IMG/VR virus record: IMGVR_UViG_3300032116_001172
Coordinates: 1 to 25,980 of that record
DNA length: 25,980 nt
DNA from: a virus
Strand: one strand, 5' to 3'
Below the pieces are notes generated by a model. It saw only the letters and a program-made list of their open reading frames with translations. It ran no database searches and was not told the origin of the DNA. Made by a program: the position numbers and the translations under genes. Positions 4,074-24,776 of this stretch are shown here, in pieces (within the stretch, counting starts at the first letter, position 1; the number at the start of each line of letters is the position of its first letter).

Positions 4074-5039
4074 TTAATTAACGGTGTAAGTTGTGTTACC
4101 ACCAAAGAAATTATTGGTACTAAATGTGCTATCTCCAGTAAAAGTATGAATTATGTAACCTGGAGAAGTTGTTACTGTACCGCCAGTAGCTTGTTGGCCT
4201 CCAGAATCATTGTAACGAATGATTACGATGCCTGTACCCCCAGAAGCACCGGCAGCTGGATTATCTTGTCCTGTACCGCCTCCGCCTCCGCCGCCAGTAT
4301 TTGTTGTTCCAGGTGTTCCTTGGCCACCAAAATGACCTCCTGTACCGCCGCCGCCACTGCCGCCTGGAGCACCAGGTGAAACTTGAGAACAACCGCCGCC
4401 ACCACCTCCTGCATAAGTTGCTGGTGTACCAGATGGTGCTATTGTTGTGGTTACTCCATTTCCTCCAGTGCCTCCAGCAGCTGCTGGAGCAGGAGCTGCA
4501 CTTCCTGGTGCTCCTGCACCGCCGCCGCCACCGCCGCCGCTGTTTCCAGCTCCAATTCCATTTCCACCATTATTTCCTTGTCCAGGAGTTCCAGGACCGC
4601 CAGATGGAGATACGCCAGGAGAAATTTCTCCAGCTCCGCCGCCACCTGAGCCACCACTTGATGCTGCGCTTAGGCTTTGGCCGCCTCGGCCACCACCAAT
4701 AGATGTAACTAAAGCTGTTGTTGATGCAACATTAATAAAAGAATAAGAACCACTTACCGAAACAGGAGTTGGATTAGTACCTCCAGGTCCACTAGCACCA
4801 ACAACAATAGAATATGAAGTTGATTTTGATAAAGAAAAATTAGATCCTTGACTGAATCCACCAGCACCTCCGCCGCCGCCATGATTAGCTCCGCCGCCGC
4901 CGCCGCCAGCAACTACAACATAATCAACAACAGTATTTGCTGGAATTGCAGCATTTAATCCTGTTGGAAATTTGTAGCCTGTTGGCCGTGATGAGCGTAA
5001 GCTATCTGAATTTGGAACATTAAGAAAACGAATCGGCAT
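4074..5039 (-). CDS. glycine-rich tail fibre/adhesin protein (copy A)
   Basis: A 321-residue protein. The N-terminus (MPIRFLNVPNS...RPTGYKFPTGL) leads into a VDYVVVAGGGGGG strand, then about 200 residues dominated by poly-glycine blocks. It closes with GIVIIRYND, SPGYIIHTFTGD and a short aromatic/Thr tail. Glycine-run domains of this kind form polyglycine-II bundles in some T-even tail-tip adhesins (S16 gp38 type), so host-surface recognition is likely but not shown. It is a clear paralogue of the protein at 5925-7019: both ends match closely and the glycine-rich middle diverges in length. The start overlaps the upstream stop as TAATG. Reverse-frame open frames over it are glycine-codon artefacts. 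Confidence 0.85.
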   Translation of the reverse strand: MPIRFLNVPNSDSLRSSRPTGYKFPTGLNAAIPANTVVDYVVVAGGGGGGANHGGGGGAGGFSQGSNFSLSKSTSYSIVVGASGPGGTNPTPVSVSGSYSFINVASTTALVTSIGGGRGGQSLSAASSGGSGGGGAGEISPGVSPSGGPGTPGQGNNGGNGIGAGNSGGGGGGGAGAPGSAAPAPAAAGGTGGNGVTTTIAPSGTPATYAGGGGGGCSQVSPGAPGGSGGGGTGGHFGGQGTPGTTNTGGGGGGGTGQDNPAAGASGGTGIVIIRYNDSGGQQATGGTVTTSPGYIIHTFTGDSTFSTNNFFGGNTTYTVN

Positions 5040-5377
5040 TATGATATCTCCACGCCAAAAGCTGAGATTGCCAAGCTACCATTATTTGTATTGGCTGCTA
5101 CAACCGTACCAGCTGGCAATGTTAAAGGAAAATCTAGTATAACTGTATCTCCAGAAGGAGCAATAGAACCACGCATTACAAAGTGTCTTGGTAATGGTGA
5201 ACTGGAATTGTCCGTAGAAGGAACAACAATAATACTATATGAAGCATTTGCATCACCGGTATTATCTACATGAATTGCGTTTACAACAGCTGCGGTGGAT
5301 GCTGGTACCACATAGACATTTGTTTGTGTATTGGCAGTTGGATTAATCTGACCAAGAATTGTATGAATATTTGGCAT
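5039..5377 (-). CDS. small tail-associated ILGQ...GVEI domain protein (copy A)
   Basis: A 112-residue protein opening MPNIHTILGQINPTANTQTN and closing AISAFGVEIS, with a strand-rich core containing VYVVPASTAA and SIIVVPSTDNSSSPLP. By eye it aligns nearly end to end with the protein at 7019-7354. The same ILGQ...GVEI frame recurs in the larger proteins at 5377-5892 and 7354-7938. It sits between a larger family member and the glycine-rich adhesin, with TAATG overlaps on both sides. It is probably a virion component of the distal tail or fibre, for instance a connector or chaperone-like subunit, but that is inferred from context only. Confidence 0.75.
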   Translation of the reverse strand: MPNIHTILGQINPTANTQTNVYVVPASTAAVVNAIHVDNTGDANASYSIIVVPSTDNSSSPLPRHFVMRGSIAPSGDTVILDFPLTLPAGTVVAANTNNGSLAISAFGVEIS

Positions 5378-5892
5378 TAGATTATCTCCACACCATAAGC
5401 ATTGACAGAAACATTTGCATTTGTAGCATTTGCACCTGTAATGTTTGCTGAAAGAATTGAACCAACATTAAGTGAAATTCTTGGTTCTAGCACCAATGTT
5501 TCTGCGGCACCAAGAGCATAACTTGTTACAATAAAGTTTCTTGTTGCTACTGCTGAACCACTTAGGTTTGCAGCTACATTGACTGATACTGTATTTGCAC
5601 TTTGATTGCATACAGTAATTGTGGTGACCATTGTATTTGTAGCTGCAGGTACCGTATAGATGGTAGTAAGAACATTTGCTGTTGGTTGCACTTGACCTAG
5701 AATTTTGTATGGAAGGCGACCAGCAGCTGAATCAGGAATAACGCCAACCGCAGAAGAAACGACCGAAAGTTGACCGTTGGAAATTGCAGCGCCAGGAGCT
5801 AACTTTGCAGCCGTGATTGTTGCGTCAGCTATATCGGACCCAACAATACTCCCTGCGGCTATCTCATTTCCTGTGACTTGTTGTAATGGCAT
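5377..5892 (-). CDS. tail-associated protein with ILGQ...GVEI domain (copy A)
   Basis: A 171-residue protein. An N-terminal part (MPLQQVTGNEIAAGSIVGSD, then ATITAAKLAPG) has the ITAAKLAPG-type repeat common in phage tail-fibre shafts. The C-terminal domain runs from YKILGQVQPTAN (about 63) to VNAYGVEII. It is paralogous to the 194-residue protein at 7354-7938, with TITAAKLAPG, SNGQLSVV and the ending conserved. The ATG at 5892 has AAGGAA about ten bases upstream, and a late-promoter-like element lies at 5914-5921, so this is the first gene of module copy A. A role in fibre assembly or attachment is inferred. Confidence 0.75.
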   Translation of the reverse strand: MPLQQVTGNEIAAGSIVGSDIADATITAAKLAPGAAISNGQLSVVSSAVGVIPDSAAGRLPYKILGQVQPTANVLTTIYTVPAATNTMVTTITVCNQSANTVSVNVAANLSGSAVATRNFIVTSYALGAAETLVLEPRISLNVGSILSANITGANATNANVSVNAYGVEII

Positions 5893-5913
5893 TAAGTGAT
5901 TCCTTGAGTATTA

Positions 5914-5921
5914 TATTTATT
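5914..5921 (-). promoter_or_regulatory. late-promoter-like element (AATAAATA)
   Basis: The minus strand reads AATAAATA, one base from TATAAATA, in the 32-base gap between the two tail modules and 22 bases before the start at 5892. The spacing is shorter than at the other candidate sites, so this is a modest call. It would allow copy A to be transcribed separately from copy B. Confidence 0.35.
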
Positions 5922-5924
5922 GTG

Positions 5925-7019
5925 CTAGTTTATAGAGTATTGTGATCCAGTCCAGTTTGTATTGGTATTAAAATTACCATCTCCAGTAAAAGTGTGAATT
6001 ATGTAACCTGGAGAAGTTGTTACTGTACCGCCGGTTGCTTTTTGGCCCTCACTATCGTTATAGCGAATAACTACAATGCCGCTTCCTCCAGAACCTCCAG
6101 TATAAACAGAAATTCCATTGCCGCCACCGCCACCGCCAGTATTTGTTCCGCCAGCACCGCCATTACCAGCGGGTCCAGGTCCATTTCGTGATCCACTTCC
6201 CGCTGTATTAAATGCCGAGTTGCCTCCAACTCCATGCCGGCCAACAGCTCCGCTGTTTGCAGGAAGAGTTCCTGGGCCATATTCAGCACCGCCGCCTCCT
6301 CCACCTAAACCACCATTTCCTGCAACTCCATTCGGGTTTAATGGACTATCATGCTGTCCACCGCCGCCACCGCCGCCAGCCCAATATAGTGATGTGCCTG
6401 TAATAGAAGATATTATTCCTATACCACCATTTCCTGAAGCTGGAGCAGGTCCAAAAACTCCAGCTACGCCAGCAGCTCCAGCTCCACCGCCGCCTCCTGG
6501 GCTATATCCACCCGAACCGTCATATTGTAGGCCGGCTCCTCCATTATTTCCTTGACCTGGAGTTCCAGTACCACCATTGACTGGAGCTGCAGGTCCAGGA
6601 AAAACTCCGCCGCCGCCACCAGATCCTCCAGCTGAACCATCAGCTGATCCTCTGGTTGGTGCGCTATAAGAACCTCCGCCGCCGCCACCTGAGCTAGAAG
6701 TTAACACAACTCCAACTGCGGTGTTTATAAAAGAAAAGCTACCGTTTGAACCTCTAATATCAACACCAGAAGTGCATCCTGGGCCTCCTGCTCCAATTTT
6801 TATACTTGAGCTTGAACTATTTGTAAATGTTAATGATCCAGTTGTAAATCCTCCGGCGCCGCCACCACCAGCACCGCCGCCGCCTCCGCCAGCAACTACG
6901 ATATAATCTACTGTTGCATTTGATGCTAAACCAGACAGTCCAACAGGAAATTTATAGCCTGTTGGTCTTACTGTTTTTCCTTCGTTAGAACTTTGATTGA
7001 CAAGAAATCTAATTGGCAT
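5925..7019 (-). CDS. glycine-rich tail fibre/adhesin protein (copy B)
   Basis: A 364-residue paralogue of the protein at 4074-5039. Shared landmarks are the MPIRFL start, RPTGYKFP, a VDYIVVAGGGGGG strand, a long glycine-rich centre, GIVVIRYNDS and TVTTSPGYIIHTFTGD. The centre is about 40 residues longer than in copy A and has different inter-glycine residues, where variation in receptor binding would be expected. Its TAATG start overlap and gene order match copy A. Likely a distal tail adhesin. Two such genes could be co-assembled subunits or alternative receptor-binding proteins. Confidence 0.85.
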   Translation of the reverse strand: MPIRFLVNQSSNEGKTVRPTGYKFPVGLSGLASNATVDYIVVAGGGGGGAGGGGAGGFTTGSLTFTNSSSSSIKIGAGGPGCTSGVDIRGSNGSFSFINTAVGVVLTSSSGGGGGGSYSAPTRGSADGSAGGSGGGGGVFPGPAAPVNGGTGTPGQGNNGGAGLQYDGSGGYSPGGGGGAGAAGVAGVFGPAPASGNGGIGIISSITGTSLYWAGGGGGGGQHDSPLNPNGVAGNGGLGGGGGGAEYGPGTLPANSGAVGRHGVGGNSAFNTAGSGSRNGPGPAGNGGAGGTNTGGGGGGNGISVYTGGSGGSGIVVIRYNDSEGQKATGGTVTTSPGYIIHTFTGDGNFNTNTNWTGSQYSIN

Positions 7020-7354
7020 TATGTTATCTCCACACCAAATGCTGAAATTGCTATACTTTGATTGCTATTCGCCGCAAGAACTGTTCCTGCTGGCAATGTC
7101 ATAACAAAATCTAGTAATGCTTCATCGTCACCTGGTAAAGAAGCTCCTCTTATCACAAAGTGCTTTGGCAATGGCGAACTAGAGTTATCAGTAGAAGGAA
7201 CAACAATGATACTGTATGAAGCATTTGTTGAACCTAAATTTGTTATGTTTATTGAATTTACAAAAGCTGCGGTAGATGCTGGTACAACATAAACATTTGT
7301 TTGTGCATTTGCCGAAGGATTTACCTGTCCTAAAATTTTTAAAGAATTTGGCAT
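7019..7354 (-). CDS. small tail-associated ILGQ...GVEI domain protein (copy B)
   Basis: A 111-residue protein, MPNSLKILGQVNPSANAQTN to AISAFGVEIT. It aligns with copy A at 5039-5377 with only a one-residue length difference, and long blocks such as YSIIVVPSTDNSSSPLP are identical. Most differences are in the middle (RGASLPGDDEALLDF versus RGSIAPSGDTVILDF). Start and stop overlap the neighbours as TAATG. Its role is inferred to be the same as copy A: a small structural or assembly protein of the tail module. Confidence 0.75.
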   Translation of the reverse strand: MPNSLKILGQVNPSANAQTNVYVVPASTAAFVNSINITNLGSTNASYSIIVVPSTDNSSSPLPKHFVIRGASLPGDDEALLDFVMTLPAGTVLAANSNQSIAISAFGVEIT

Positions 7355-7938
7355 TAGATTATCTCCACACCAAAAGCATTAACCGTTACATTTGATGTAT
7401 TTGCATTTGCTCCAATTATGTTAGCAGCAAGAATTGAAGAAGCATTCATTGTTATATTTGGTTCTAACAGAAGTGTATCCGCTCCGGTAAGATTAAACGA
7501 CCTTACAAGATAATGTTGATTACTTAAAGCTTGTGTGTTTAATCTAGCAAAAAAATCAACGGATACCGTATTAGCAGATTGATTTGTAATGGCAATTGTT
7601 TTTACGACAGTTTGAGTTGAAGCAGGAACAACATATACATTTGTTGTCGTATTTCCAAATGTTGATCCTCCAACTTGAACTTGCCCTAAAATTTTATATG
7701 GAGTTATTGTTGCTGGCGAATCTGGAATTACAGCAAGACCAGCAGTGACAACGGATAATTGACCATTTGAGAGAGCAGTGCCAGGAGCTAACTTTGCAGC
7801 CGTGATTGTGCCATCTACAATATTGTTTGCGTTGATAGCCGTCAGGCCAAGTTTATCGCCTGTGATGGATTGGCTTCCAAATGAATCTACGACTGCGTTG
7901 GCAGCGATAACTCCCGCCGTTACTTTTGTTAAGGGCAA
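7354..7938 (-). CDS. tail-associated protein with ILGQ...GVEI domain (copy B), TTG start
   Basis: A 194-residue protein starting with TTG at 7938 (residues MPLTKVTAGVIAANAV, matching the MPLQQVTGNEIAAGSI start of copy A). A strong Shine-Dalgarno, TAGGAG, six or so bases upstream fixes this unusual start. The N-terminal part repeats INANNIVDGTITAAKLAPG, a fibre-shaft-like pattern. The C-terminal domain runs from YKILGQVQVGG to VNAFGVEII. It is the first gene after the consensus late promoter at 7973-7980 and is 23 residues longer than copy A, mostly N-terminal. Probably a virion tail-fibre component. Confidence 0.75.
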   Translation of the reverse strand: MPLTKVTAGVIAANAVVDSFGSQSITGDKLGLTAINANNIVDGTITAAKLAPGTALSNGQLSVVTAGLAVIPDSPATITPYKILGQVQVGGSTFGNTTTNVYVVPASTQTVVKTIAITNQSANTVSVDFFARLNTQALSNQHYLVRSFNLTGADTLLLEPNITMNASSILAANIIGANANTSNVTVNAFGVEII

Positions 7939-7980: not shown

Positions 7981-8233
7981 ATTCTACAACCTGCTCGGCG
8001 TCTAGGTCTTGTATGAAATTAATAAAAGAACAGGCGATATCCTCATCTGTAAAATGTCGGATTATCGCCTGCCCGGTGTATTGCGAAATAACAGTAATTA
8101 AAAAGTTATTCCCGTCAAAAATAGAAAACTTGATAATCCAGCCGTTTCTTGCAACTGGATGCCAAGATTTAGTTTTTTGCGCTATTTGTGTATAGCGATT
8201 TAACGGTGCCTGTTTTGATGAATTCTTTTGCAT
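7976..8233 (-). CDS. hypothetical protein, 85 residues, overlapping the phasin-like gene
   Basis: Starts MQKNSSKQAPLNRYTQIAQK; the main part, SWHPVARNGWIIKFSIFDGN to QDLDAEQVVEL, looks like a compact alpha/beta domain. The ATG at 8233 lies 65 bases inside the 3' end of the phasin-like gene in another frame. Its nearest Shine-Dalgarno-like GGAG is only one base from the ATG, so initiation is uncertain; a TTG at 8263 in the same frame is less likely. The C-terminal two thirds do not overlap any gene and have normal coding character. Function unknown. Confidence 0.55.
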   Translation of the reverse strand: MQKNSSKQAPLNRYTQIAQKTKSWHPVARNGWIIKFSIFDGNNFLITVISQYTGQAIIRHFTDEDIACSFINFIQDLDAEQVVEL

Positions 8234-8435
8234 ACTCCGAACCTTGGTTGACGGCCTCTGCAACCTTGGCCGTGTAGGTATAGAAGTATTTATCGGTTAC
8301 ATCATTGAAGAATTTGAGGGATTCTTTGGCAATGGTGTTGTTAAATTCAACGGTTTTGATAGCGAAATCTTTGGACTTCTCAACGGTATCCTGAATTTGC
8401 TCTGGTTTCATAGTCATTTTGGTATAGTCAAACAT
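8169..8435 (-). CDS. phasin-like protein
   Basis: An 88-residue, almost wholly helical protein: MFDYTKMTMKPEQIQDTVEK, then VEFNNTIAKESLKFFNDVTD (29-48), YFYTYTAKVAEAVNQG and EYAKEFIKTG. The alternating hydrophobic/charged pattern, the FNNTIAKESL-like stretch and the A-V-A-E-A-V-N-Q-G segment resemble phasins, which coat polyhydroxybutyrate granules. Bacterial phasins are usually about twice as long. The start at 8435 is fixed by AAGGAG eight bases upstream; the open frame extends further but without a ribosome site. It lies behind the promoter-like element at 8613-8646, after a 36-residue gene. Assignment rests on pattern only; another amphipathic helical phage protein is possible. Confidence 0.5.
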   Translation of the reverse strand: MFDYTKMTMKPEQIQDTVEKSKDFAIKTVEFNNTIAKESLKFFNDVTDKYFYTYTAKVAEAVNQGSEYAKEFIKTGTVKSLYTNSAKN

Positions 8436-8725: not shown

Positions 8726-9133
8726 CTAAAGCTTAATTAGGTGGTCCTTCCTAATTCTACAACTCACCCAAGCATTCCAGTAATTATCAGACAGTAATGC
8801 GTGTCTGGTAAATATCTCCCAGGTTTCATAATAAGAACATTCACTCCGAGTATTACAGAGGTGTAATATCTCTCTGGTGTATTCACTTTCACCATTTTTC
8901 TTTACTTCTTCTTGTAATTCTTTGTTACTTCCCCAATAACTTTCCCAATCCGATTTAACTCGGCTTCGTTTCTTTTTACCTTTTACTTGTTTTGTTTTGG
9001 CTTTGGTGAAAAACTTTTTACCCACATATTTTTTACCAGTTTTTATGTGTGTAATGAGATAGACCATGCCGAAAGCATGGCCTATATTTTCTTCTTTGAA
9101 CTCTGTGGTTGTATTATGAAAGTACCAAGTCAC
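8726..9133 (-). CDS. GIY-YIG-like endonuclease domain protein
   Basis: A 135-residue protein with GMVYLITHI (22-30) and KKYVGKKFF (34-42), the two strands corresponding to the GIY and YIG motifs. A basic loop (43-60), SDWESYWGSN (61-70), a conserved-type YTREIL (R87), a glutamate in YYETWE (E103) and an N near the end (N120) follow. The SDW..YWGS...REIL arrangement is one I know from small putative nucleases in T4-like phages. It starts with GTG at 9133, overlapping the stop of the zinc-ribbon gene (GTGA), with GAGGA six bases upstream. It may be a stand-alone homing or DNA-processing nuclease; activity is unproven. Confidence 0.65.
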   Translation of the reverse strand: MTWYFHNTTTEFKEENIGHAFGMVYLITHIKTGKKYVGKKFFTKAKTKQVKGKKKRSRVKSDWESYWGSNKELQEEVKKNGESEYTREILHLCNTRSECSYYETWEIFTRHALLSDNYWNAWVSCRIRKDHLIKL

Positions 9134-9279
9134 TCATCGTCCTCAACATTATCCATATCTTCTAGTATGTAGGCGCCGCAGAATGGACAATTTTGAGGGT
9201 CTGATTCGGTTTGCTCTTCATCGTATTTAAGTGTGAAATCAGAACCACACTCATCGCAAATATGATGTAATGTTGCCAT
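9130..9279 (-). CDS. small zinc-ribbon protein
   Basis: A 49-residue protein with two CxxC knuckles: C8-D-E-C11 and C31-P-F-C34. They are separated by an acidic linker, with an acidic tail ending EDMDNVEDDE. Four cysteines in this arrangement should bind one zinc ion. The start overlaps the thermonuclease stop as TAATG and the end overlaps the nuclease start as GTGA, which strongly supports the reading. Small zinc ribbons of this kind are common in phages and may bind nucleic acid or host polymerase; no specific role can be assigned. Confidence 0.7.
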   Translation of the reverse strand: MATLHHICDECGSDFTLKYDEEQTESDPQNCPFCGAYILEDMDNVEDDE

Positions 9280-9722
9280 TAGTTACACCATGATTGTTTT
9301 GCATCACCATAATATTCACGAGCAAAACCATTTTGAATTAGCATCGTGCGTAGTGATTGGCCGTTCAGAATGATATCACCAAGAACACGACCACCAAATT
9401 TATCCCAGCCATACAGAACCACTTGGCGTTTCTGTGCAGCCGCTACAACATTTTTTGTAAAGTCAGTAGCTGCACGGCCTCTTTGGTCCTCTTGTGGGCA
9501 TTGAGCTCTGTGGCCTTTCTCTGGAGTATCAACACCAAAGATACGAACCGCCAATTCAGGTTTCAATGGTTGTGGTAGAAATGGTGCTGCAATTACAACC
9601 GTATCACCATCGTTTATTCTTACAATTTGTGCATCATATGTTACACCTTGTGGTGTTTTTTGTGCGTATGCGGCTGGCACTACAATGGCAATGACCAACG
9701 CAATAAAAATATAGAGTTTCAT
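9279..9722 (-). CDS. secreted thermonuclease (staphylococcal-nuclease-like)
   Basis: A 147-residue protein. Residues 1-20 form a signal peptide (MKLYIFIALVIAIVVPAAYA). The SNase fold follows: INDGDTVVI (calcium ligand D40), VRIFGVDTPEK with R60, D65, T66 and E68, and YGWDKFGGRVLGDI with R112. These correspond to D21, R35, D40, T41, E43 and R87 of the staphylococcal enzyme, so the active site is complete. It should cut DNA or RNA in the periplasm or outside. The start overlaps the preceding small gene as ATGA, with AAAGGAG upstream. Possible roles are degrading incoming competitor DNA or recovering nucleotides after lysis; neither is shown. Confidence 0.85.
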   Translation of the reverse strand: MKLYIFIALVIAIVVPAAYAQKTPQGVTYDAQIVRINDGDTVVIAAPFLPQPLKPELAVRIFGVDTPEKGHRAQCPQEDQRGRAATDFTKNVVAAAQKRQVVLYGWDKFGGRVLGDIILNGQSLRTMLIQNGFAREYYGDAKQSWCN

Positions 9723-9898
9723 TTTTCTCCTTTACATACTAGGTTTTTGTCACATTTTTCCATTGTACCATCTTGCGTGTTCATACGAATGATGGTGCCT
9801 TCGCTATCAATGTTGAAAGTGTATTTAGCATTGTTTACTTGAGGCATAAAAACTTGATAGCCTAAAAAACAAGTCATAATTAAGGTAAGTGCAAACAT
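9719..9898 (-). CDS. small exported protein, 59 residues, downstream of isocitrate lyase
   Basis: Begins [20 protein letters not shown], a hydrophobic anchor or signal segment. A small strand-rich domain follows (KYTFNIDSEGTIIRMNTQDG, then MEKCDKNLVCKGEK). The pattern of a strand, I-I-R-M-N-T-x-D-G and a terminal cysteine resembles short periplasmic proteins in which the chain reports a name and value-like beta-hairpin; I know no function. The ATG overlaps the isocitrate lyase stop (TAATG at 9900-9896) and its stop overlaps the thermonuclease start (ATGA), so all three are probably co-translated. Confidence 0.65.
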   Translation of the reverse strand: MFALTLIMTCFLGYQVFMPQVNNAKYTFNIDSEGTIIRMNTQDGTMEKCDKNLVCKGEK

Positions 9899-11175
9899 TA
9901 GTGAAATTGTTCCGTTTCAGTAGAATTTTTCATCGCAGTCGTAGAAGAGTTCGCCTCAATTGTAGTTGTAACGGCATCAAAATATGAAGTTCCAACCTCT
10001 CGTTGATGTTTGACAGCGGTAAATCCTTCTTTTTGTAAATCAAACTCTTGTTCTTGTAATTCAACAAACGCCGACATATTTCGTTCACGATATCCAGAAG
10101 CAAGCCTAAACATTCCAGCATTAATAGAGTGGAAGCCAGCAAGAGTAACAAACTGAAATTTATAACCCATGGCACCCAATTCCTTTTGGAAATTTGCAAT
10201 CGTTTCATCATCTAAATTTTTCTTCCAATTGAATGAAGGTGAGCAATTATATGACAACATCTTACCAGGAAACTCTTTGTGAATTGCTTCTGCAAATTTC
10301 TTTGCATACTCTAAATCAGGTTTCCCGGTTTCACACCATACTAAATCAGCGTAAGGTGCATAAGCCAGTCCTCTACTTATGGCTTGTTCCAGACCTGGTC
10401 TGGTACGATAAAATCCTTCAACCGTTCTCTCACCCGTTAAAAACGGTTTATCATTTTCATCTATATCTGAAGTAACCAAATCAGCAGCTTCGGCGTCTGT
10501 GCGAGCAACCACAAGAGTAGGCACACCGCAGATATCAGCAGCCAATCGTGCCGCATTGAGCTTATTAATTGCTTCTCTCGTTGGAACCAATACTTTTCCT
10601 CCGAGGTGGCCACACTTTTTGACCGATGCAAGTTGATCCTCAAAATGAACTCCTGCGGCGCCTGCACGAATCATTTGCTTCATTAATTCAAATGCATTAA
10701 GAACACCGCCAAATCCTGCCTCTGCATCAGCAACAATTGGCACAAAATAATCTACATCACCTACGCCTTCCATCCATTGGATTTGGTCAGCACGCCGAAA
10801 TGTGTTGTTGATTTTCTCAACAACTTTTGGTACACTATAAGCAGGATACAAAGATTGGTCAGGATACATTTCACCTGCCATATTTGCATCGGCTGCCACC
10901 TGCCAACCAGACAAATAGATGGCCTTTAAACCAGCCTTTGCCTGTTGTAGTGCCTGCATACCAGTTAAGGCACCTAGCGCATTTACAAATGGTTCATTAT
11001 GTAGGTCTGTCCATAATCTACTGGCACCACGAGCCGCCAATGTAAACTGCTCATCAACCGAACCATACAATCTTACAACATCTTCTGCTGTATAATTGCG
11101 TTTGATACCACGCCAACGAATACTTTCAGACCACTCTTTTTGTAATGCTTCTGCTAATTGTTTTTTGTCAATCAT
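9898..11175 (-). CDS. aceA: isocitrate lyase
   Basis: A full-length 425-residue isocitrate lyase (E. coli enzyme 434). It cleaves isocitrate to glyoxylate and succinate, the first step of the glyoxylate shunt. Visible signatures are [10 protein letters not shown] (89-98), DAEAGFGG (150-157), the catalytic KKCGH (186-190, C188), [10 protein letters not shown] (224-233), NCSPSFNW (310-317) and a C-terminal [13 protein letters not shown]. Every catalytic block is intact. Stretches such as [15 protein letters not shown] and FVELQE remind me of betaproteobacterial enzymes. No malate synthase or AceK is present here. AGGAG lies in the loop of a hairpin whose stem contains the ATG. It follows nrdB by 48 bases and is coupled to three downstream genes. 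A host-derived auxiliary metabolic gene is the best explanation. Confidence 0.95.
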
Positions 11176-11201
11176 AGTAAAACTCCTCTGCTTTTACTAT
11201 G
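11173..11201 (-). promoter_or_regulatory. hairpin over the isocitrate lyase start codon
   Basis: CATAGTAAAA (11173-11182) and TTTTACTATG (11192-11201) are perfect ten-base inverted arms around a nine-base loop. In the mRNA the loop carries the Shine-Dalgarno (GAGGAG) and the 3' arm ends in the ATG. The stem would therefore hold the start codon while displaying the ribosome site. This suggests translational control by RNA folding or by a protein binding the stem. Confidence 0.65.
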
Positions 11202-11223: not shown

Positions 11224-12213
11224 TTATGCGGCTTTACCCCATACATCGTCCCATGTTCCAGACAGAGCGCCTTTTGCGTAGTCCGTAACACGATTCTCAA
11301 AGAAATTACCATGTATTGGTGCGTTAATCATTTCTTCAACCCATGGCAAAGGATTCTTTTTAACTTTAAAAATACCTTTCATGCCCATAGAAATCAATCT
11401 ACGGTCAGCTATGTAACGAATGTATTGCTTTACATCTTCTGGCGTAAGGTTTTCCATTTGACCCATTTCAAATGCTAAATCAATAAACTTATCTTCTAAT
11501 TCAACCATTCGTGTTGCAATGGTATAGATTTGTGCTTTGAGTGTATCATTCCAAATTTCATTATTTTCATGGATATAAGTTTTAAACAACTTAATCATGG
11601 ATTCGGTGTGCATGGTTTCATCAACAATAGACCATGTAACAATCTGGCCCATGCCTTTCATCTTACCATGGCGTGGGAAATTCAGTAACATAATAAATGA
11701 ACTGAACAACTGCATACCTTCAGTAAATGCAGAGAATACAGCGATATGTGTGGCCGTGTTTTCTTTTGTTGTATTTTTACCAGAGATATCTAATACATAA
11801 TCGTGTTTCTGCCTCATCGCATCGTATTCCATAAACTGATTATACATTGTCTCTGGTAAACCCAATGTTTCAATTAAATGTGAATAAGCAGCCACATGAA
11901 GTGCCTCTCTTGCAGCAAAGCCAAGAAGCATCATACGAACTTCTGGTTGTGGAAAATATGGCAAATAATTCTTTACATAACCACCAGCAACATCAATGTC
12001 ACCTTGTGTGAAGAAACGGAAAATGTGTGTAAGAAATTGTTTTTCTTCTTTGTTTAATTTATTTTTCCAATCTTTTACATCCTCTAACATAGGAACTTCC
12101 GAGTGAAGCCAGTGGGCTTGCTCATGTTTCAACCATGCTTCATATGCCCATGGATATGAAAATGGTTTAAAGTGTGTTCTATCTTCTGTTAGATTATATT
12201 TTTTCTTTGTCAT
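11224..12213 (-). CDS. nrdB: class Ia ribonucleotide reductase small (beta) subunit
   Basis: A 329-residue protein with the diiron and radical residues of NrdB: D72 (TQGDIDVAGG), E103 and H106 with the radical tyrosine Y110 (REALHVAAY), E165 (AFTEGMQLF), and E199 and H202 (IVDETMHTES). It stores the tyrosyl radical for the alpha subunit in making deoxyribonucleotides in the cytoplasm. Length is close to other phage NrdB proteins and there is no N-terminal ATP-cone. The ATG overlaps the stop of the 42-residue gene (ATGA) and nrdA lies just upstream. The product supplies dNTPs with ThyX. Confidence 0.95.
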   Translation of the reverse strand: MTKKKYNLTEDRTHFKPFSYPWAYEAWLKHEQAHWLHSEVPMLEDVKDWKNKLNKEEKQFLTHIFRFFTQGDIDVAGGYVKNYLPYFPQPEVRMMLLGFAAREALHVAAYSHLIETLGLPETMYNQFMEYDAMRQKHDYVLDISGKNTTKENTATHIAVFSAFTEGMQLFSSFIMLLNFPRHGKMKGMGQIVTWSIVDETMHTESMIKLFKTYIHENNEIWNDTLKAQIYTIATRMVELEDKFIDLAFEMGQMENLTPEDVKQYIRYIADRRLISMGMKGIFKVKKNPLPWVEEMINAPIHGNFFENRVTDYAKGALSGTWDDVWGKAA

Positions 12214-12339: not shown

Positions 12340-14136
12340 TTATCCCTCACAAGCTAAACAAACTTCTTCGGTTGCTAATTGTTTCAAATCAATTTCTTGT
12401 ATAACTTCTCTTTCAATTTTCTTGGCCACTTTATCAGCCTTGGCCAATTTTTCACTACGACAATAGTAAAGCGTTTTTAATTTTTGCTTCCAGGCCTGAA
12501 AATGAACTGCATGGAGATATTTTACATTAACATCTGGTCTAAAAAAGAGATTGATAGATTGCGCTTGGTCAATGTAACTTTGTCTGTTAGCTGCATGGTC
12601 CACCACCCATCTTTGGTCAATTTCCATAGAGGTCTTATACACATCTTTCTGCCACTCATCCAGAAAGTTGAGGTGTTGAACGGATCCATCATTTGCGATG
12701 ATTGATGACCAAATCTCATTGTAGTCAAGGCTTTTGTCATTGTCGCATTTCTCCTGTATGATTTTGTCCAGATATTTGTTTTTGTTTAGATATGCACCAC
12801 TTAATGTGTCTTGTCTATAAGCATTAGCCCGAAAAGGCTCAACAGAAGGGCTTGTATTACCCATGATGATGGATGAACTAGCATTAGGAGCAATAGCGAG
12901 CATATGACTAAAGCGTAGACCGGTACCTTTAGCATCAGGAGCTTCACCCCTTTGTTTACCAAGGTATATGTTTGCTTGATCCAAATAAGCTCTAATGTGT
13001 TTGAAGATTTTGTTGTTGGCTGATGTGGCCAAAGCAGATTCCCAAGCAATATTGTTACGCTGCAGGTAAGCATGGAACCCAAGAGCACCAATACCAATAG
13101 AACGCTCTCGCTCGGCACTATACTTTGCACGAGCAATAGCATCAGGAGCATTGTCAATAAAATACTGAAGCACATTATCAAGCATCTCGGCAACATCACG
13201 CAGAAATAATGGGTCAGATTTCCATTCATCGTAATACTCCAAATTAACTGAAGATAAACAACATACAGCTGTGCGCTCTTTATCTGTTGGTAAAATAATT
13301 TCACTACACAAATTAGATTGTTTAATTGATAAGCCTAATTTCTTTTGAAACTCTGGCATTGCTGCATTACTTGTATCAATGAAATGTAGATATGGTTCAC
13401 CAGTCATCATGCGAATCTCAAGTATACGCTGCCACAATTCACGAGCCGAAACTGTATCACGCACCTCGCCGCTATGTGGGTCTTTTAGGTTCCATGTATC
13501 ATCGGCTGCTGGGTCAAGCATACACTTTTCAACCAAGTGCATGAAATCATCGGTAATATTAATACCGTGATGTAGATTCAGACAACGCATATTCTGGTCG
13601 CCTGTTGGTTTTCTCATCTCCAAAAATATGAGAATGTCAGGATGGCTAATGTCAAGATAAGCAGCGTAAGAGCCACGCCGGGTGCGGCCCTGCCTGTAAG
13701 CCAAACTAGAAGCATCATAAGTGCGAAGATGAGGCATGACGCCAACAGATTTGTCGTCAGCCGAACGAATTCCAATACCAATTCCAACACCGCCTCCTAA
13801 CATTGAGAGCCAATTAACTTCCGATAAACAATCAACCAGACCTTCCGCAGAATCATCCAAATACGGGAGAAAACAAGAAATGGGAAGACCACGCTTAGAC
13901 CGACCAAAAGATAAAATGGGAGTAGAATAAGAAAGCCAATGTCTAGAGCTATACTCATAGAGCCTTTGCGAGTGTGCCAAATCCGTCCCAAAAGATTTAG
14001 ATACATATGCGAACCTTTCTTGTGGAGAAGTTTCATCTTCTCTCATATAGCTTTCTTTTAATCGTTTTAAACCTAATTCATCAAATAAGGAATCACGAGA
14101 GAAATCAACGGTGATGCCGTGAACAATGTCTGACAT
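12340..14136 (-). CDS. nrdA: class Ia ribonucleotide reductase large (alpha) subunit, no ATP-cone
   Basis: A 598-residue catalytic subunit. Active-site residues are N275, C277 and E279 (SNLCSEIILP). The redox cysteine pair is C88 (PISCFLPY) with one of C292/C293 (VCCLSSVNL). The radical-transfer pair is Y557-Y558 (LYYCRSEK), and the C-terminal reducing pair is C593/C596 (CLACEG). Typical NrdA has about 750 residues. Here the protein begins near the catalytic barrel, so the N-terminal ATP-cone that senses dATP is missing. GGAG seven bases before the ATG at 14136 supports the start and argues against a truncated call. Followed by the 42-residue gene and nrdB. Confidence 0.95.
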   Translation of the reverse strand: MSDIVHGITVDFSRDSLFDELGLKRLKESYMREDETSPQERFAYVSKSFGTDLAHSQRLYEYSSRHWLSYSTPILSFGRSKRGLPISCFLPYLDDSAEGLVDCLSEVNWLSMLGGGVGIGIGIRSADDKSVGVMPHLRTYDASSLAYRQGRTRRGSYAAYLDISHPDILIFLEMRKPTGDQNMRCLNLHHGINITDDFMHLVEKCMLDPAADDTWNLKDPHSGEVRDTVSARELWQRILEIRMMTGEPYLHFIDTSNAAMPEFQKKLGLSIKQSNLCSEIILPTDKERTAVCCLSSVNLEYYDEWKSDPLFLRDVAEMLDNVLQYFIDNAPDAIARAKYSAERERSIGIGALGFHAYLQRNNIAWESALATSANNKIFKHIRAYLDQANIYLGKQRGEAPDAKGTGLRFSHMLAIAPNASSSIIMGNTSPSVEPFRANAYRQDTLSGAYLNKNKYLDKIIQEKCDNDKSLDYNEIWSSIIANDGSVQHLNFLDEWQKDVYKTSMEIDQRWVVDHAANRQSYIDQAQSINLFFRPDVNVKYLHAVHFQAWKQKLKTLYYCRSEKLAKADKVAKKIEREVIQEIDLKQLATEEVCLACEG

Positions 14137-14158: not shown

Positions 14159-14854
14159 TTATTTTGTTACAAATTCATTCGCCATCGGAAATACTTTGGC
14201 GATTACTTCAGCACATTTCTGTGCAATTTGAATGTGTTCTTTCTGTGTGCCATTTGCTGAACGGAGTTGTATGTAGTGAATCCAACTACGCAAAGTTCCA
14301 TTCATATACAAACGAGAAACAGTATTGCCTTCGGGCAGAACAGCCCTGGCCTGTTCCTTTGCTATACCTTTATTCACCGCCCATGTATATGTTTCTTTGG
14401 CAAGTGCAATAAGGATTTTTTGTTTGTGTAACCATTCATCATTAATAAGGGCATGACCCAAAGTGCCATTCAATGAAACACTATTCTGTCTATTTTTTGG
14501 ATCTTGTAATCTAGCTTCTCTTGTTACAAATTCTAGTTCTTTTGTTGGGTCAGCATAACGCTGAGAAAACTCCTGGAAAGAAAATGAACGGTGACGAAGC
14601 ATTTGTCTGGCGATATCTCTTGTGGTTGTAATTTCTAAACAAACATTGACAACTTCCAATGGTGACCAATGTTGATTCTTTATGAGGTAACGAATTAACT
14701 TCTCACTTGTGTCTGTGTTGTTTTGATTGCTTGGATTAGATACTCTAGCACAAAAAGCAACCAAATCTTGCATATTCATCACATCAATCTCAACATTGTC
14801 CATTTTGGCAAGATCAATTGCTTGCTGAGAATAACTAATCAATTTCACATTCAT
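14159..14854 (-). CDS. thyX: flavin-dependent thymidylate synthase
   Basis: A 231-residue ThyX, which makes dTMP from dUMP using FAD and methylene-folate. The signature RHRx7S is intact (R87-H88-R89 to S97; RHRSFSFQEFSQRY). HWSPLEV precedes it and the substrate-binding EQARAVLPE stretch follows (167-175). I chose the ATG at 14854, which overlaps the primase stop as ATGA and has GGAAG upstream. A GTG at 14866 would add four residues. It sits between primase and nrdA, a dNTP-supply cluster. The presence of ThyX lets the phage make thymidylate independently of host ThyA. Confidence 0.95.
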   Translation of the reverse strand: MNVKLISYSQQAIDLAKMDNVEIDVMNMQDLVAFCARVSNPSNQNNTDTSEKLIRYLIKNQHWSPLEVVNVCLEITTTRDIARQMLRHRSFSFQEFSQRYADPTKELEFVTREARLQDPKNRQNSVSLNGTLGHALINDEWLHKQKILIALAKETYTWAVNKGIAKEQARAVLPEGNTVSRLYMNGTLRSWIHYIQLRSANGTQKEHIQIAQKCAEVIAKVFPMANEFVTK

Positions 14855-15882
14855 ATTTTCTTCCACATATTAAACTTGATTTGCGCTTCAATACTTCTGA
14901 AGGAGTTACTACTTATAATTCTTTCTATCTCATCCACAGTTTTTCCAGCAATAATCATTTCATTTATGTCCTTGCCTTGTGTATTGCTTGGCCAAATTAC
15001 GACATTATGACCCGATTTGATTGCATCTTGCATCATCTTTACGATTTCTTTATTGCGTGGTTCATTATCAAAAATTAATAACTTCTCATCTGCTGAAATT
15101 TCATCTGCTGCAATGGATAAATTAGCATCGCCACTAGCCACACAATTAGTAAGAAACATTGAATCAATAGGGCCTTCTAGTATTTTTACGATGCCATCCA
15201 ATGAAACACGGTCCATACCGTAAATCAACTTATTCTCATTATCATTTGTGCGAATTGTAACATAGCGAAGTGTTTTGTCACTTGTTTCTAGCGCACGGCC
15301 TGACACAGCAATCAAATCATCATACTCATCATAAAAAGGTATGACAAGGCGAGCATCATCTACGATTTGCTTGCCATGGTTTGGCACCAATGCATCTACA
15401 AATTGTTTGTAGTGTTGTGTGAATAATAACTTACTGTAAAACTCTTTTGGTATTTGTCGCTTTGAAATATACTCTAAGCAATAATGTCCACTTGGTAGTT
15501 TGTCACACCATTCGGCGTGTTCAAATACTTTTGCTTTTTCAACTCGGCCAAATTTGGGTGGCTGTATGTTGAGGATTGTGTTCGCTGAATAGGAGTTATT
15601 GGATTCACCTGTCTTATACTTTTCCAGAGTGTATTCTCGGTATAGTGACGAATCAATATGCTTGAGGAAGTTACCAACATTTGCACCAACTCCACAGTTA
15701 TGGCATTTATAGATGAGGTCATTACCTTTTGGAAAGATATAGCCTCGGGCCTTGGATTTATTCTTTTGACTATCGCCGCAATAGGGGCAGCTGAAGTTAA
15801 ACAAATAACTATTCTTCTGCTTGAAGTTACGCAAGCGAGAAGATACTAGGCGGACATATTTTGTATCAATTGGGAGAGACAT
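14851..15882 (-). CDS. DNA primase, T4 gp61-like with TOPRIM domain
   Basis: A 343-residue primase. The N-terminal zinc ribbon has C32-P-Y-C35 and C60-H-N-C63. The TOPRIM catalytic domain has ILEGPID (E236) and LLIFDNEPRN (D272). The length and the CPYCGDSQKNKSKARGY stretch fit T4 gp61-type primases, which lay RNA primers with the replicative helicase on the lagging strand. The ATG at 15882 lacks a Shine-Dalgarno, and a TTGATT-17-TATGAT promoter lies immediately upstream with its -10 only six bases away. The transcript may thus be nearly leaderless, or start further upstream. Translation is coupled to thyX. Confidence 0.9.
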   Translation of the reverse strand: MSLPIDTKYVRLVSSRLRNFKQKNSYLFNFSCPYCGDSQKNKSKARGYIFPKGNDLIYKCHNCGVGANVGNFLKHIDSSLYREYTLEKYKTGESNNSYSANTILNIQPPKFGRVEKAKVFEHAEWCDKLPSGHYCLEYISKRQIPKEFYSKLLFTQHYKQFVDALVPNHGKQIVDDARLVIPFYDEYDDLIAVSGRALETSDKTLRYVTIRTNDNENKLIYGMDRVSLDGIVKILEGPIDSMFLTNCVASGDANLSIAADEISADEKLLIFDNEPRNKEIVKMMQDAIKSGHNVVIWPSNTQGKDINEMIIAGKTVDEIERIISSNSFRSIEAQIKFNMWKKI

Positions 15883-16554: not shown

Positions 16555-16772
16555 TTTTGATCCTTTTTAGCGAATTTTTCTGATGCTGTAAATCCTAAAC
16601 CTGCTACCACAATATACATCATAGCTTCAAACACATTTGGGTCAACTTTGTAATCCCAAATCATATCACCAATAAATCCTGCTGCACACAATAAAAACGC
16701 AGCAATTGTAACTGCACGCTTACTACTAATGCCATCATCCGTGCCGTCTGTAAAAAGAGAAAGTAATTTCAT
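16551..16772 (-). CDS. two-TM holin candidate
   Basis: A 73-residue protein with a short N-terminus (MKLLSLFTDGTDDGISSK), two hydrophobic segments (about 19-40, ending GFIGDMIWDY, and 46-65, FEAMMYIVVAGLGFTASE) and a charged tail (KFAKKDQK). Size, two helices and direct adjacency to the endolysin (stop/start overlap at 16772) fit a class II holin that releases endolysin through the inner membrane. Final assignment would need functional evidence, since other small membrane proteins are in the same cassette. Confidence 0.7.
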   Translation of the reverse strand: MKLLSLFTDGTDDGISSKRAVTIAAFLLCAAGFIGDMIWDYKVDPNVFEAMMYIVVAGLGFTASEKFAKKDQK

Positions 16773-17401
16773 TAATGACCACCCATTACATGAAGTGCGT
16801 GTTCATAGTGTTTGATTCTATCTTCTAATCCAATATAACCACCGTTGATGCGGCGTGTAAGTTCTTTAATGTCGCCTGTATCGGCCCATTTATTAAGATT
16901 GTTTGTTTCCCAGAACCAGCAGGCCGATTGTGCAGCTCCTTCAAATGTAGCAAGATATTCAGGTACATCTTCAACAGGTGTTTCAATGCTCATTGCAAAG
17001 TTTTGATAATTGCTTTTACCTGTTAACTGAATGAGGCCACGACCGCAATATCTCCATCCATCACCACTTTCTTCAGGTCCATTTCCCATGCGACTTGCGT
17101 AAATACGATTGGCAATGGCCTCTTGTTTGTTTGGTCGTGATGCATAATCATTTGCTAATTCATCTGTTGGAAAATATTTTGGAAATAATTTACGCAACGA
17201 TGCAGCACGGTAGTTTAAGTTTTCTTTCAATGCAGTAAAGCCACCAGATTCGTGAGCGCATTGTGCTATGAAAGCGGCGATTCTCTGTGGTGTATTGATA
17301 TCATAATCTGGCAATAATTGAGCAAGGGCCCGATGCCAATGCTCAACATATGGGTTTTTAGGCAGTAATTGTTTGAGTTGGTCTAAAGTCAGTTCGGTCA
17401 T
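16772..17401 (-). CDS. GH19 chitinase-like endolysin
   Basis: A 209-residue glycoside hydrolase family 19 protein. The catalytic glutamate lies in AHESGGF (E51), with a second acid in KENLNY (E60). The family blocks WRYCGRGLIQLTGKSNYQNF (116-135) and RINGGYIGLEDR are both present. It should cleave the glycan chains of peptidoglycan at the end of infection. No signal peptide or cell-wall-binding domain is seen, which agrees with holin-dependent release. AGGATAAG before the ATG gives a good ribosome site. It precedes the holin candidate and follows two lipoproteins. Confidence 0.9.
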   Translation of the reverse strand: MTELTLDQLKQLLPKNPYVEHWHRALAQLLPDYDINTPQRIAAFIAQCAHESGGFTALKENLNYRAASLRKLFPKYFPTDELANDYASRPNKQEAIANRIYASRMGNGPEESGDGWRYCGRGLIQLTGKSNYQNFAMSIETPVEDVPEYLATFEGAAQSACWFWETNNLNKWADTGDIKELTRRINGGYIGLEDRIKHYEHALHVMGGH

Positions 17402-21972: not shown

Positions 21973-21973
21973 T

Positions 21974-22840
21974 TCAGGCTTTCTCTTTTGCGATGCGGGT
22001 TGCGGTAGCATACATTACATTTTTAGCACGCTCACCATAACGCTCTTTAAAACCAGGCATTTTCTTTTTCATTGATTTAACAACTTCTTCTTTTTTCTTT
22101 GCTTCTGGTTTTGTAAGTGAACGCTCTTCTAAATCAATCGTAGAAACTTTAATTTCATTTGCATCGGTCATATCAATAACCTGCACTTGATTATGGGTTT
22201 TAGATTGAGTTTCTTCAGGCATTTGCTTTACGCCTTGTGTAGAAGCTGCTGAAACAGATGGTTGTTTCTTTTTACCCATCATAGAAGCTTCTTGGTCTTT
22301 TAATTCTTTTGTAAACTGCTCATTGTCCGGTTCTTCAGCAATTACAGCAAGACCATGCTCTTTGTATGCAGCCATCATTTCAGAGAAAGTCATTGATTTT
22401 TCTTCTTCTTGCTCAACTTCTTCTTTATTATAACCTGGAACTTTTGGTACAACACCATATTTACCTATTTTTCCGGATCTAGCTTCTAATCTCCTAACAG
22501 CATCTCTTTTTCCAATAGATTGATTTTCATAAGAAGAACCAGATCCTTGGCGGCCGCCACCGCCACTTTCTACTTCTTTTGTCTTTTTTAAGTAAGATTT
22601 GAGTGTTTCATTAGAAAGCTCATCAATTTGTTCTACTTCTTCTTTCTTTACTTCTTTTTTAGCACGAAGAAGTTTGAAGTCGTGAGCATCAATCTTATTG
22701 TTTTTGTTGGCATCAATCTTGTGTTGATTGCCTTTCAGTCCTTCTTCTAACATCTTTGGTTCTTGTTTAGCAGATTCGCCAGCCAAAATTTTGGCAACGG
22801 CATCTGCAACATTACGAGTTTTTTGGTTGTCGAAATGCAT
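21974..22840 (-). CDS. modular head protein with EF-hand-like loop and EEVEQIDE motif
   Basis: A 288-residue charged protein starting MHFDNQKTRNVADAVAKILA. Residues 43-54 (DANKNNKIDAHD) have D-x-N-x-N-x-K-I-D-x-x-D, a plausible calcium-binding EF-hand or dockerin-like loop. EEVEQIDE at 67-74 is followed by LSNETLKSYLKKT. A degenerate EEVEQEEE is at 140-147. The C-terminal MPGFKERYGERAKNVMYATA (261-280) is a module I recall from head-region proteins of T4-like phages. The start has TAGGAGAA upstream, and the stop is one base before the next ATG. Probably a prohead-internal protein; function unproven. Confidence 0.7.
   Translation of the reverse strand: MHFDNQKTRNVADAVAKILAGESAKQEPKMLEEGLKGNQHKIDANKNNKIDAHDFKLLRAKKEVKKEEVEQIDELSNETLKSYLKKTKEVESGGGGRQGSGSSYENQSIGKRDAVRRLEARSGKIGKYGVVPKVPGYNKEEVEQEEEKSMTFSEMMAAYKEHGLAVIAEEPDNEQFTKELKDQEASMMGKKKQPSVSAASTQGVKQMPEETQSKTHNQVQVIDMTDANEIKVSTIDLEERSLTKPEAKKKEEVVKSMKKKMPGFKERYGERAKNVMYATATRIAKEKA
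22619..22642 (-). repeat. EEVEQIDE motif in the EF-hand-like head protein
   Basis: Codes for KEEVEQIDE followed by LSNETLKSYLKKT. Shared with the downstream large head protein (20929-20952, 20539-20562). Confidence 0.75.
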
Positions 22841-22859: not shown

Positions 22860-24275
22860 TTAATAAATTTCTCGCCATTGTAAGGCAGCAGCAACCGTTG
22901 CAACTGCTTGAGCGGCTGTTGTAATTGTTCTTACCACTACTACATATACTTCTGAATTTGATGAATCATAATTTTGCGTAATAAAATTCTTTTTTGCTTC
23001 AGAAATGCCTCCAGTATTTACTGGTGATAGTGCGTTTTGTGAAGCACCCGCAGGAACAAATCCGGCAAGAAGAATTTCTGCGTTTGCGGATGTGTAAGTA
23101 TCAGCATTAACACTATATTCACAACCACTATCTGGATCGGCTGAAATCCAAACAATTGGACCGGTACTGTTTGCTAAATCTCCAGTATTAGGTAATTTTA
23201 CAATCTTAAAAATAATACTGTTTGTTTCTGCATACATTGAGAGTGTATCTAATTTCACACTCAATCGGTTTGGATAAGTTTTAAATGTGTTCTTTAATCT
23301 TAATGCAACAAGAGGCAATTCTGTTGCGGCTGGTGATTGAGTTGTTCTTGCATTGTTAACAATTCCCCAATCAAGACCAGATTCATTGTAACCACCTTCT
23401 GAAATAACAGTAGCACAAATTTGACCCATAGAACCGCCAGAAGTTGTTCCAGTATTTCTTATTTCACAACGAACTGGTAAGTTTGGATTTGAAAGATAAA
23501 CTGTATCCAATACATTTGAATTATAGTATTCGTGTGCTATAATAAACTCACCATCATGGACAAAACCAACACGAACACGGCCAACACCTAGCCATTGAAA
23601 GTCAATGTAAATTAATTGTGTTTTTGAAGTATCAATGTTGAAACCTGATGGGCCTGTACCGTCACAAGGGTCACGGTTCCATTGTGATTGTGGCACTCTA
23701 CGCTTATAAGAACCAACATCTGTTTCTTCTGGTGTTCCATTTACAAAAGAACGAATTACAAAATTTAATGTTCCGTTATCTGTATTGTTTGAAGTGTTTG
23801 AACCAACTTGCTCAAAATAAATTCCATCACGGTCATCAAAGTATCCAGTTCTCTTTGTCACATTTTGTTGTGCGTACCCAAACACAACAGAAGAAAGAAT
23901 AACTTGTGATTTGCCTGGTTGATAACTGTGATAAAATTTACTTTGGTGTACCGATACAGATGATGTGCTATTGTTTGTTGATAATGTGGCAGAAGCAGTA
24001 TTTCCTGTAAACACAACTGAACCGCCATTTGCAGTAAAATCTATAAAATTTGGATCAATTCCATAAAGATGTTTGTAGTCGCCAAGTGTAAATGGTTCTG
24101 CAACACGCAAACGCCCAAAAGCATCACCAGTAGGGCCAGAAAATGCAGCATCCACAGGTAATCTATTTTCAGTTGACACAATATCACCATTGGCACCATT
24201 GGCCAAATACATGACCTCATAGATGTGCCTATTGGTATTTAAAAACTGATTTGTTTGTGTCGTAAATTGAGTCAT
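22860..24275 (-). CDS. large virion structural protein
   Basis: A 471-residue protein, starting MTQFTTQTNQFLNTNRHIYE. It contains FGRLRVAEPFTLGDYKHLYG (53-72), a jelly-roll-like strand-rich core with repeated GYFDDRDGIYFEQVG, QLIYIDFQWLGVGRVRVGFV and EFIIAHEYYNSN, and a C-terminus ending ALQWREIY. The AFGRLRV(S/A)EPFTLGDYKHLYG block is known to me from abundant structural proteins of marine and freshwater T4-like phages, probably of the outer capsid or tail. It has no membrane segment and its cysteines look unpaired. Context among head proteins supports a virion role; the exact location is not resolvable. Confidence 0.75.
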   Translation of the reverse strand: MTQFTTQTNQFLNTNRHIYEVMYLANGANGDIVSTENRLPVDAAFSGPTGDAFGRLRVAEPFTLGDYKHLYGIDPNFIDFTANGGSVVFTGNTASATLSTNNSTSSVSVHQSKFYHSYQPGKSQVILSSVVFGYAQQNVTKRTGYFDDRDGIYFEQVGSNTSNNTDNGTLNFVIRSFVNGTPEETDVGSYKRRVPQSQWNRDPCDGTGPSGFNIDTSKTQLIYIDFQWLGVGRVRVGFVHDGEFIIAHEYYNSNVLDTVYLSNPNLPVRCEIRNTGTTSGGSMGQICATVISEGGYNESGLDWGIVNNARTTQSPAATELPLVALRLKNTFKTYPNRLSVKLDTLSMYAETNSIIFKIVKLPNTGDLANSTGPIVWISADPDSGCEYSVNADTYTSANAEILLAGFVPAGASQNALSPVNTGGISEAKKNFITQNYDSSNSEVYVVVVRTITTAAQAVATVAAALQWREIY

Positions 24276-24281
24276 ATTATA

Positions 24282-24776
24282 TTAGCAGTTCCACTTTCTT
24301 AGTGCTTTGTTGATGCGGCTATCTGGATCATTGGCAGTTTTTGCTGATGTTAAACGCTTTTTCATTCCACCCATACGAGCGCAGAATGATTTACGGCGAT
24401 TGGCTGCCTTTGAACCAGGTTTTAATTTACTAGGTTTTGTAGTAACTGCCATAGAAAGTTTTGAACCTGGATTTTCACGGCGATATGATTCAATACCTTT
24501 ACGATTCAAACCGCCAGATTCAGATTTACCCTCTTTGCGTTGCCATGCAGCAACTTCATCAAGTTCTACTTCTTCACCCATGTGCTTACCTTGAATGTCC
24601 TTGTAGTGACGAGCACCGGTTCTTTTACCTTCGTTATCCACTTCAGCATATTCGTAGGTCTTTTTGCCTGTTGCTGTATGTGTAGCAGTTTTACCTGTTG
24701 GATGCCACATATGACCTTTTTCACCAGGATAATCTTTTGGTTGTTCTTCTGTGATATAAGATTTAAATGATTTCAT
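24282..24776 (-). CDS. internal head protein candidate with capsid-targeting-like start (DUF6321-like)
   Basis: A 164-residue basic protein. Residues 1-10, MKSFKSYITE, resemble the capsid-targeting sequence of T4 internal protein III (M-K-T-Y-Q-E-F-I-A-E as I recall it). They end in I-T-E, a prohead-protease-type site. EEVELDE lies at 68-74. The C-terminal module RRKSFCARMGGMKKRLTSAK (127-146) to ALRKWNC matches a small basic phage domain I have in memory as DUF6321. High lysine/arginine content fits DNA contact in the capsid. The ATG overlaps the upstream stop (ATGA at 24776-24773). The internal-protein role is inferred. Confidence 0.7.
   Translation of the reverse strand: MKSFKSYITEEQPKDYPGEKGHMWHPTGKTATHTATGKKTYEYAEVDNEGKRTGARHYKDIQGKHMGEEVELDEVAAWQRKEGKSESGGLNRKGIESYRRENPGSKLSMAVTTKPSKLKPGSKAANRRKSFCARMGGMKKRLTSAKTANDPDSRINKALRKWNC
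24555..24575 (-). repeat. EEVELDE motif, short form
   Basis: Codes for GEEVELDE followed by VAAWQRKEGK, a seven-residue form of the EEVEQIDE linker, containing the L-x-E protease-like site. Confidence 0.6.

Follow-up and report, generated by a model that had tools for sequence, protein, structure and literature searches.

Isocitrate lyase (ICL) is the first enzyme of the glyoxylate shunt and cleaves isocitrate into succinate and glyoxylate. Among viruses, an aceBA operon has been described in the 179-kb marine T4-like genome TARA_ERS478052_N000008 (Nishimura et al. 2017; PMC5332604), and aceA and aceB gene families were reported from Pacific Ocean viromes (Hurwitz et al. 2013; PMC4053976). 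Viral genes mentioned from beneath the Ross Ice Shelf (PMC10721903) and from a Tibetan proglacial lake (PMC12783922) also include isocitrate lyase; the papers on phage tetrapyrrole genes and on glacier streams that were examined for it do not mention the enzyme. During infection of Pseudoalteromonas by phage HP1, host aceA and aceB rise about threefold (PMC7082346), and the shunt can therefore matter during infection.

The gene described here is carried by a 25,980-base IMG/VR virus record (the window, meaning this stretch at its full length), all main genes of which lie on the minus strand. Compared by description, the window phage resembles TARA_ERS478052_N000008 in having a phage-borne ICL with a proposed shunt role, a large genome and T4-like structural genes, but the marine genome has malate synthase in the operon, whereas the clade of the window carries a lone ICL by nrdAB. 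The Pacific Ocean genes are likewise virus-associated shunt genes, but they were reported as gene families, with neither a genomic setting nor a clade specific to phages.

Among 50,697 GenBank phage records, a convincing ICL was found only in Phage C48C1 (OQ984149, Kyanoviridae), a 156-kb circular genome in which WJE87928.1, annotated as 'hypothetical protein' (L002 9995-11236), has all checked ICL motifs, as does the window protein, but shows 57% identity to it, a very long branch and a different gene neighbourhood. Hits H1-H4 and H6-H10 of the 'phages' collection are bacterial contigs or host fragments by annotation, record names and lengths and were not counted. The window ICL had no match in PHROGs and no significant match in the viral structure library. 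IMG/VR, in contrast, holds at least 219 contigs with an ICL relative, some of which may be bacterial edges; by comparison, collections of cultured phages hardly reveal the gene. The preliminary description, which did not place ICL among the usual auxiliary metabolic genes of T4-like phages, needs correction in that there are two precedents (PMC5332604, PMC4053976). A phage ICL per se is not wholly new; the phage-specific, nrdAB-linked clade has been little noticed so far, and a limited literature search found no earlier account of such a clade that is free of malate synthase.

Gene identity, active site and fold

The aceA-type gene (9898..11175, minus strand) is an intact open reading frame of 425 amino acids with an ATG start. 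Its product scores 790.5 bits with the NCBIfam equivalog for isocitrate lyase, NF011645 (cut-off 562 bits), over residues 3-424, and matches TIGR01346 at 613 bits and the Pfam ICL family with E=2.6e-102; the closest solved structure is the Burkholderia pseudomallei ICL (PDB code 3i4e; TM 0.91, 78% identity). That this is a phage-borne ICL is, in our judgement, virtually certain, and the earlier claim of a complete gene containing every named catalytic block is borne out. A function in propionate metabolism, as methylisocitrate lyase or as an enzyme with both activities, might also be considered, given that methylisocitrate is a side substrate of some ICLs, as is established for Mycobacterium. 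However, the methylisocitrate lyase (prpB) model scores 101.8 bits, far below its cut-off of 354.4 and against 790 for the ICL equivalog, and the solved structures nearest to the protein are ICLs throughout; this identity was dropped on model score and we regard it as highly improbable.

The active site was examined at 23 catalytic and substrate- or metal-binding positions, chosen from known ICL structures. All 23, including K186, K187, C188, G189 and H190 (the KKCGH motif), D106, D150, E152, H177, E179, R225, N310, S312, S314 and T344, show no variation across ICL rows from viral records (66) and bacteria (112). The predicted model (pLDDT 83.7, pTM 0.86) matched only ICLs among the 50 PDB matches listed, with best TM scores of 0.91-0.94. 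Its low-confidence parts are the C-terminal tail and loops 97-109 and 184-192; both loops bear residues of the catalytic site and, in ICLs, are mobile elements. Pairwise dN/dS values of phage ICL range from 0.02 to 0.19, several of the dS values being near saturation. The gene is intact and, as judged from these substitution ratios, under purifying selection, and the enzyme is apparently catalytically competent.

Operon context in the window

On the minus strand the genes run in the order primase, thyX, nrdA, nrdB, ICL, a 59-residue ORF, a nuclease and an endonuclease. The phage-type DNA primase (14851..15882; PHROG 47, 2e-69) is followed by the FAD-dependent thymidylate synthase ThyX (14159..14866; Pfam PF02511, TIGR02170) and by the large and small ribonucleotide reductase subunits NrdA (12340..14136; PHROG 84, 3e-157; NF006577, 744 bits) and NrdB (11224..12213; PF00268, 4e-76; PHROG 86), the latter separated from ICL by a 48-nt gap. 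A strong Shine-Dalgarno sequence, AGAGGAG (11183..11189), read directly from the sequence, stands 7 nt ahead of the ATG at 11175. Downstream, the ICL stop codon and the start of the 59-residue ORF (9719..9898) share TAATG, and this ORF in turn overlaps by 4 nt (ATGA) with the start of a staphylococcal-nuclease-like gene (9279..9722; Pfam SNase, 3e-11; PHROG 452 endonuclease), beyond which lies a SegE-like GIY-YIG endonuclease (8726..9133; Pfam PF19835, 2.6e-31), all again on the minus strand. The placement of ICL between nrdB and nuclease genes on one strand, as first described, is therefore correct; the coupled downstream overlaps are also present, but the link to the nuclease runs via the 59-residue ORF. 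A scan for sigma-70-like promoters returned 20 sites, no excess over the 23.1 in shuffled sequences.

Further markers of phage context on the same strand are a GH19-like endolysin (16772..17401; PHROG 181, 5.9e-79) and a virion structural protein (22860..24275; PHROG 1645, 1.7e-108). The latter lies among adjoining structural-region proteins (20107-22840 and 24282-24776) that have a common repeated peptide motif near EEVEQIDE. Elsewhere in the window (4074-7938) there is a tandem duplicate of a three-gene set, comprising a Gly-rich tail- or adhesin-like protein and two small proteins, the copies of which are still alike.

Phage origin and phylogeny

IMG/VR does hold bacterial edges, and ICL could in principle be bacterial DNA in the form of a chimeric contig, a prophage edge or a transduced host fragment. 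One such case is probably L022, where ICL sits at the extreme contig end and is nested in Oxalobacteraceae; it resembles a prophage edge, and its ICL is best left out of any count of phage genes. For the window, the neighbours of ICL match phage PHROG families (primase, NrdA, NrdB, ThyX, endolysin and virion protein), and eight other distinct IMG/VR sequences (L005/L006, L008/L009, L010, L011, L012, L013, L015 and L016) likewise have NrdB upstream of ICL, at a distance of 15-911 nt, as does the 100% identical contig L003. The order nrdB-ICL thus recurs in nine distinct sequences beyond the window. ICL identity to the window protein is 100% in L003, 92% in L005/L006 and 89% in L008/L009, and between contigs the ICL, NrdB and NrdA identities run in parallel (92/90/94, 89/87/92, 87/85/88 and 88/85/86%), which argues for long inheritance of ICL with the reductase operon.

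Composition agrees with this: GC3 of the window ICL is 0.29, within the 0.20-0.37 of other phage genes and against a bacterial median of 0.85, and over 59 viral loci the GC of ICL follows that of its flanks (r=0.89). The 95.7-kb contig L008, of the same lineage as the window, encodes a T4 gp23 capsid protein (484 bits) and a terminase (105 bits), and ribosomal protein S8, for which the model was positive in 14 of 14 control genomes, was found in none of the 50 ICL records. Together with bacterial ICL identities of at most 80% in the genomes searched, the recurrent gene order, the co-divergence with NrdA and NrdB and the phage-like GC3 leave a bacterial source scarcely credible and in practice refuted. 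The chimeric assembly that the preliminary description named as a refutation does not apply, and ICL is an auxiliary metabolic gene of a virus genome, with phage genes on either side. Separately, a 99-100% relative, L014 (1925-3575), has two in-frame deletions, one of 144 nt in ICL and one of 288 nt spanning the nrdA/nrdB junction, by which NrdA and NrdB would become a single fused protein; these are probably an assembly fault, for which reason L014 was excluded from the tree, although a genuine variant is conceivable.

The window ICL groups, in a 178-sequence tree, with viral sequences alone: 44 rows form a clade (SH-aLRT 93) whose sister group consists of Burkholderiales and Xanthomonadales-type enzymes; a more careful tree of 64 rows recovers a phage clade of 28 rows with support of 99/93. 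The best bacterial identity to the window protein is 80% among 300 Burkholderiales genomes, 153 of which gave a match, and 79% in a wider genome scan. ICLs of the Burkholderiales and Xanthomonadales, as exemplified by 3i4e, have the fold and active site in common with the window enzyme, but the latter stands in its own clade, with low GC3 and within a phage reductase operon. It had been anticipated that a phage clade would be nested in Burkholderiales enzymes; the clade is instead sister to them. The trees indicate a phage-specific lineage that split off before the sampled betaproteobacterial diversity, although, because the node joining the bacterial sister group is weak (88/72), the clade may be basal within that group. 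Perhaps the host is a betaproteobacterium, to which the ICL tree points weakly. By their positions in the trees, other phages have captured ICL separately, namely L020, the L063-L082 groups, L068/L077 and Phage C48C1; the ICL of L020, a 251-kb record positive for gp23, derives from Oxalobacteraceae in the 64-row tree.

Gene neighbourhoods and proposed function

The observation as a whole is confirmed, and its original interpretation, a glyoxylate shunt that also feeds glycine and purine synthesis, is supported in part, the exceptions being its prediction for the tree and the degree of novelty that it claimed. As a full mechanism, we consider it rather probable that the ICL of this T4-like phage opens a glyoxylate branch with the malate synthase of the host; activity of the enzyme, the timing of its expression, use of the host malate synthase and a benefit to dNTP supply are the parts that we infer. 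The adjacency of ICL to nrdAB suggests that the enzyme would be made during DNA replication, from a nucleotide-metabolism operon nrdA-nrdB-ICL-nuclease. It would then cleave host isocitrate to succinate and glyoxylate, host malate synthase would condense glyoxylate with acetyl-CoA to malate, and the infected cell would skip the two steps at which the TCA cycle loses CO2. Acetate, lipid or storage polymer would be the source of the acetyl-CoA carbon thereby kept for oxaloacetate, aspartate, gluconeogenesis, ribose and nucleotides.

A tie of phage ICL to the shunt follows from eight loci, in groups of 64-67% identity, in which malate synthase (aceB) directly precedes ICL. Malate synthase was present in six of the 50 ICL records scanned, none of them from the window clade, even though contigs of 222-337 kb are included there, and none of the window genes adjoining ICL encodes it, so that the window gene is not part of an aceBA operon. 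In the window clade the pathway would therefore depend on the host. Two further findings count against the mechanism: a strong ICL match was obtained in just 153 of the 300 sampled Burkholderiales genomes, and the catalytic loops of the model are those predicted with low confidence.

The lack of malate synthase in window-clade records speaks for the main alternative, in which ICL alone, independently of that enzyme, supplies glyoxylate, transaminated to glycine for purines and one-carbon units, and succinate for respiration. ICL would then be a dNTP-supply enzyme, fitting its site by nrdAB and thyX. Such a role is also favoured by the fact that several distinct phage lineages have ICL next to reductase genes or among them. 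Besides the window group and L020, these lineages comprise L034/L044, with the gene order nrdA-ICL-nrdB, and the aceBA group, in which NrdA is 2-5 kb distant. In L034 (7664-12378), NrdA (775 residues), ICL and NrdB (366 residues) nearly touch or overlap, and the reductase is of a type unlike that of the window. Such phages often carry nrdAB, however, and the functional tie of ICL to ribonucleotide reductase is for that reason suggestive and short of proof; the proximity may be due to chance or to regulation. Moreover, no glyoxylate aminotransferase was recognised in the neighbourhood of ICL, and the phages with aceBA favour the classical shunt. We consider the glycine route rather unlikely.

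A broader proposal is that a phage-specific ICL lineage, long resident in large and jumbo T4-like phages, is a dedicated, malate-synthase-free part of a nucleotide-supply module. ICL would recur beside or inside reductase operons, co-travelling with fatty-acid desaturase and class II aldolase, and DNA synthesis would be supplied with glyoxylate, glycine and succinate made from host lipid or storage carbon. Of 65 loci, 23 do have a desaturase near ICL and 13 a class II aldolase, and phages of the window clade usually carry the desaturase. Desaturase genes adjoin ICL at L008 9303-10004, L017 8848-9588, L018 11995-12720, L046 12113-12826 and L061 11272-11979. Pfam desaturase matches fall on 26 of the 50 records, every one of which belongs to the window clade; the 14 records from other ICL groups (G037-G050) have none. 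The association may come partly from shared phage ancestry. The module is, to our mind, a doubtful proposition.

Since ICL and isocitrate dehydrogenase are established competitors for isocitrate, a diversion of isocitrate that lowers 2-oxoglutarate and NADPH, altering nitrogen signalling or 2-oxoglutarate-dependent host functions, was also weighed. The recurrent neighbours of ICL include no aceK-like or other gene directed at isocitrate dehydrogenase, and we hold this effect to be very unlikely as the purpose of the gene.

The glyoxylate branch with host malate synthase thus remains the preferred reading, and phage ICL probably helps infected cells to turn carbon into viral DNA. If active, the enzyme would alter the split of carbon between CO2 and biomass in infected aquatic bacteria. 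The gene points to central carbon metabolism at the TCA/glyoxylate branch point as a standing target of large phages, reached through a phage-only clade rather than by occasional capture, and the repeated link of ICL to ribonucleotide reductase offers a testable hypothesis for the use of the carbon.

An 88-residue protein of the window (8169-8435) appears phasin-like on visual inspection, and similar small ORFs accompany ICL in other phages (L013 4101-4364 and L017 10385-10618); a role at PHB granules was considered for these small ORFs, which we treat as mere look-alikes because Pfam gave no phasin match. In window-type phages, the surroundings of ICL also contain other metabolic genes that vary between phages, seen at L005 9250-9946, L012 1956-3027 and L013 2849-3781: IscU/IscA-like genes, a phosphoribosyltransferase together with a nucleoside-phosphorylase-family protein, and a phosphate-binding-like protein.
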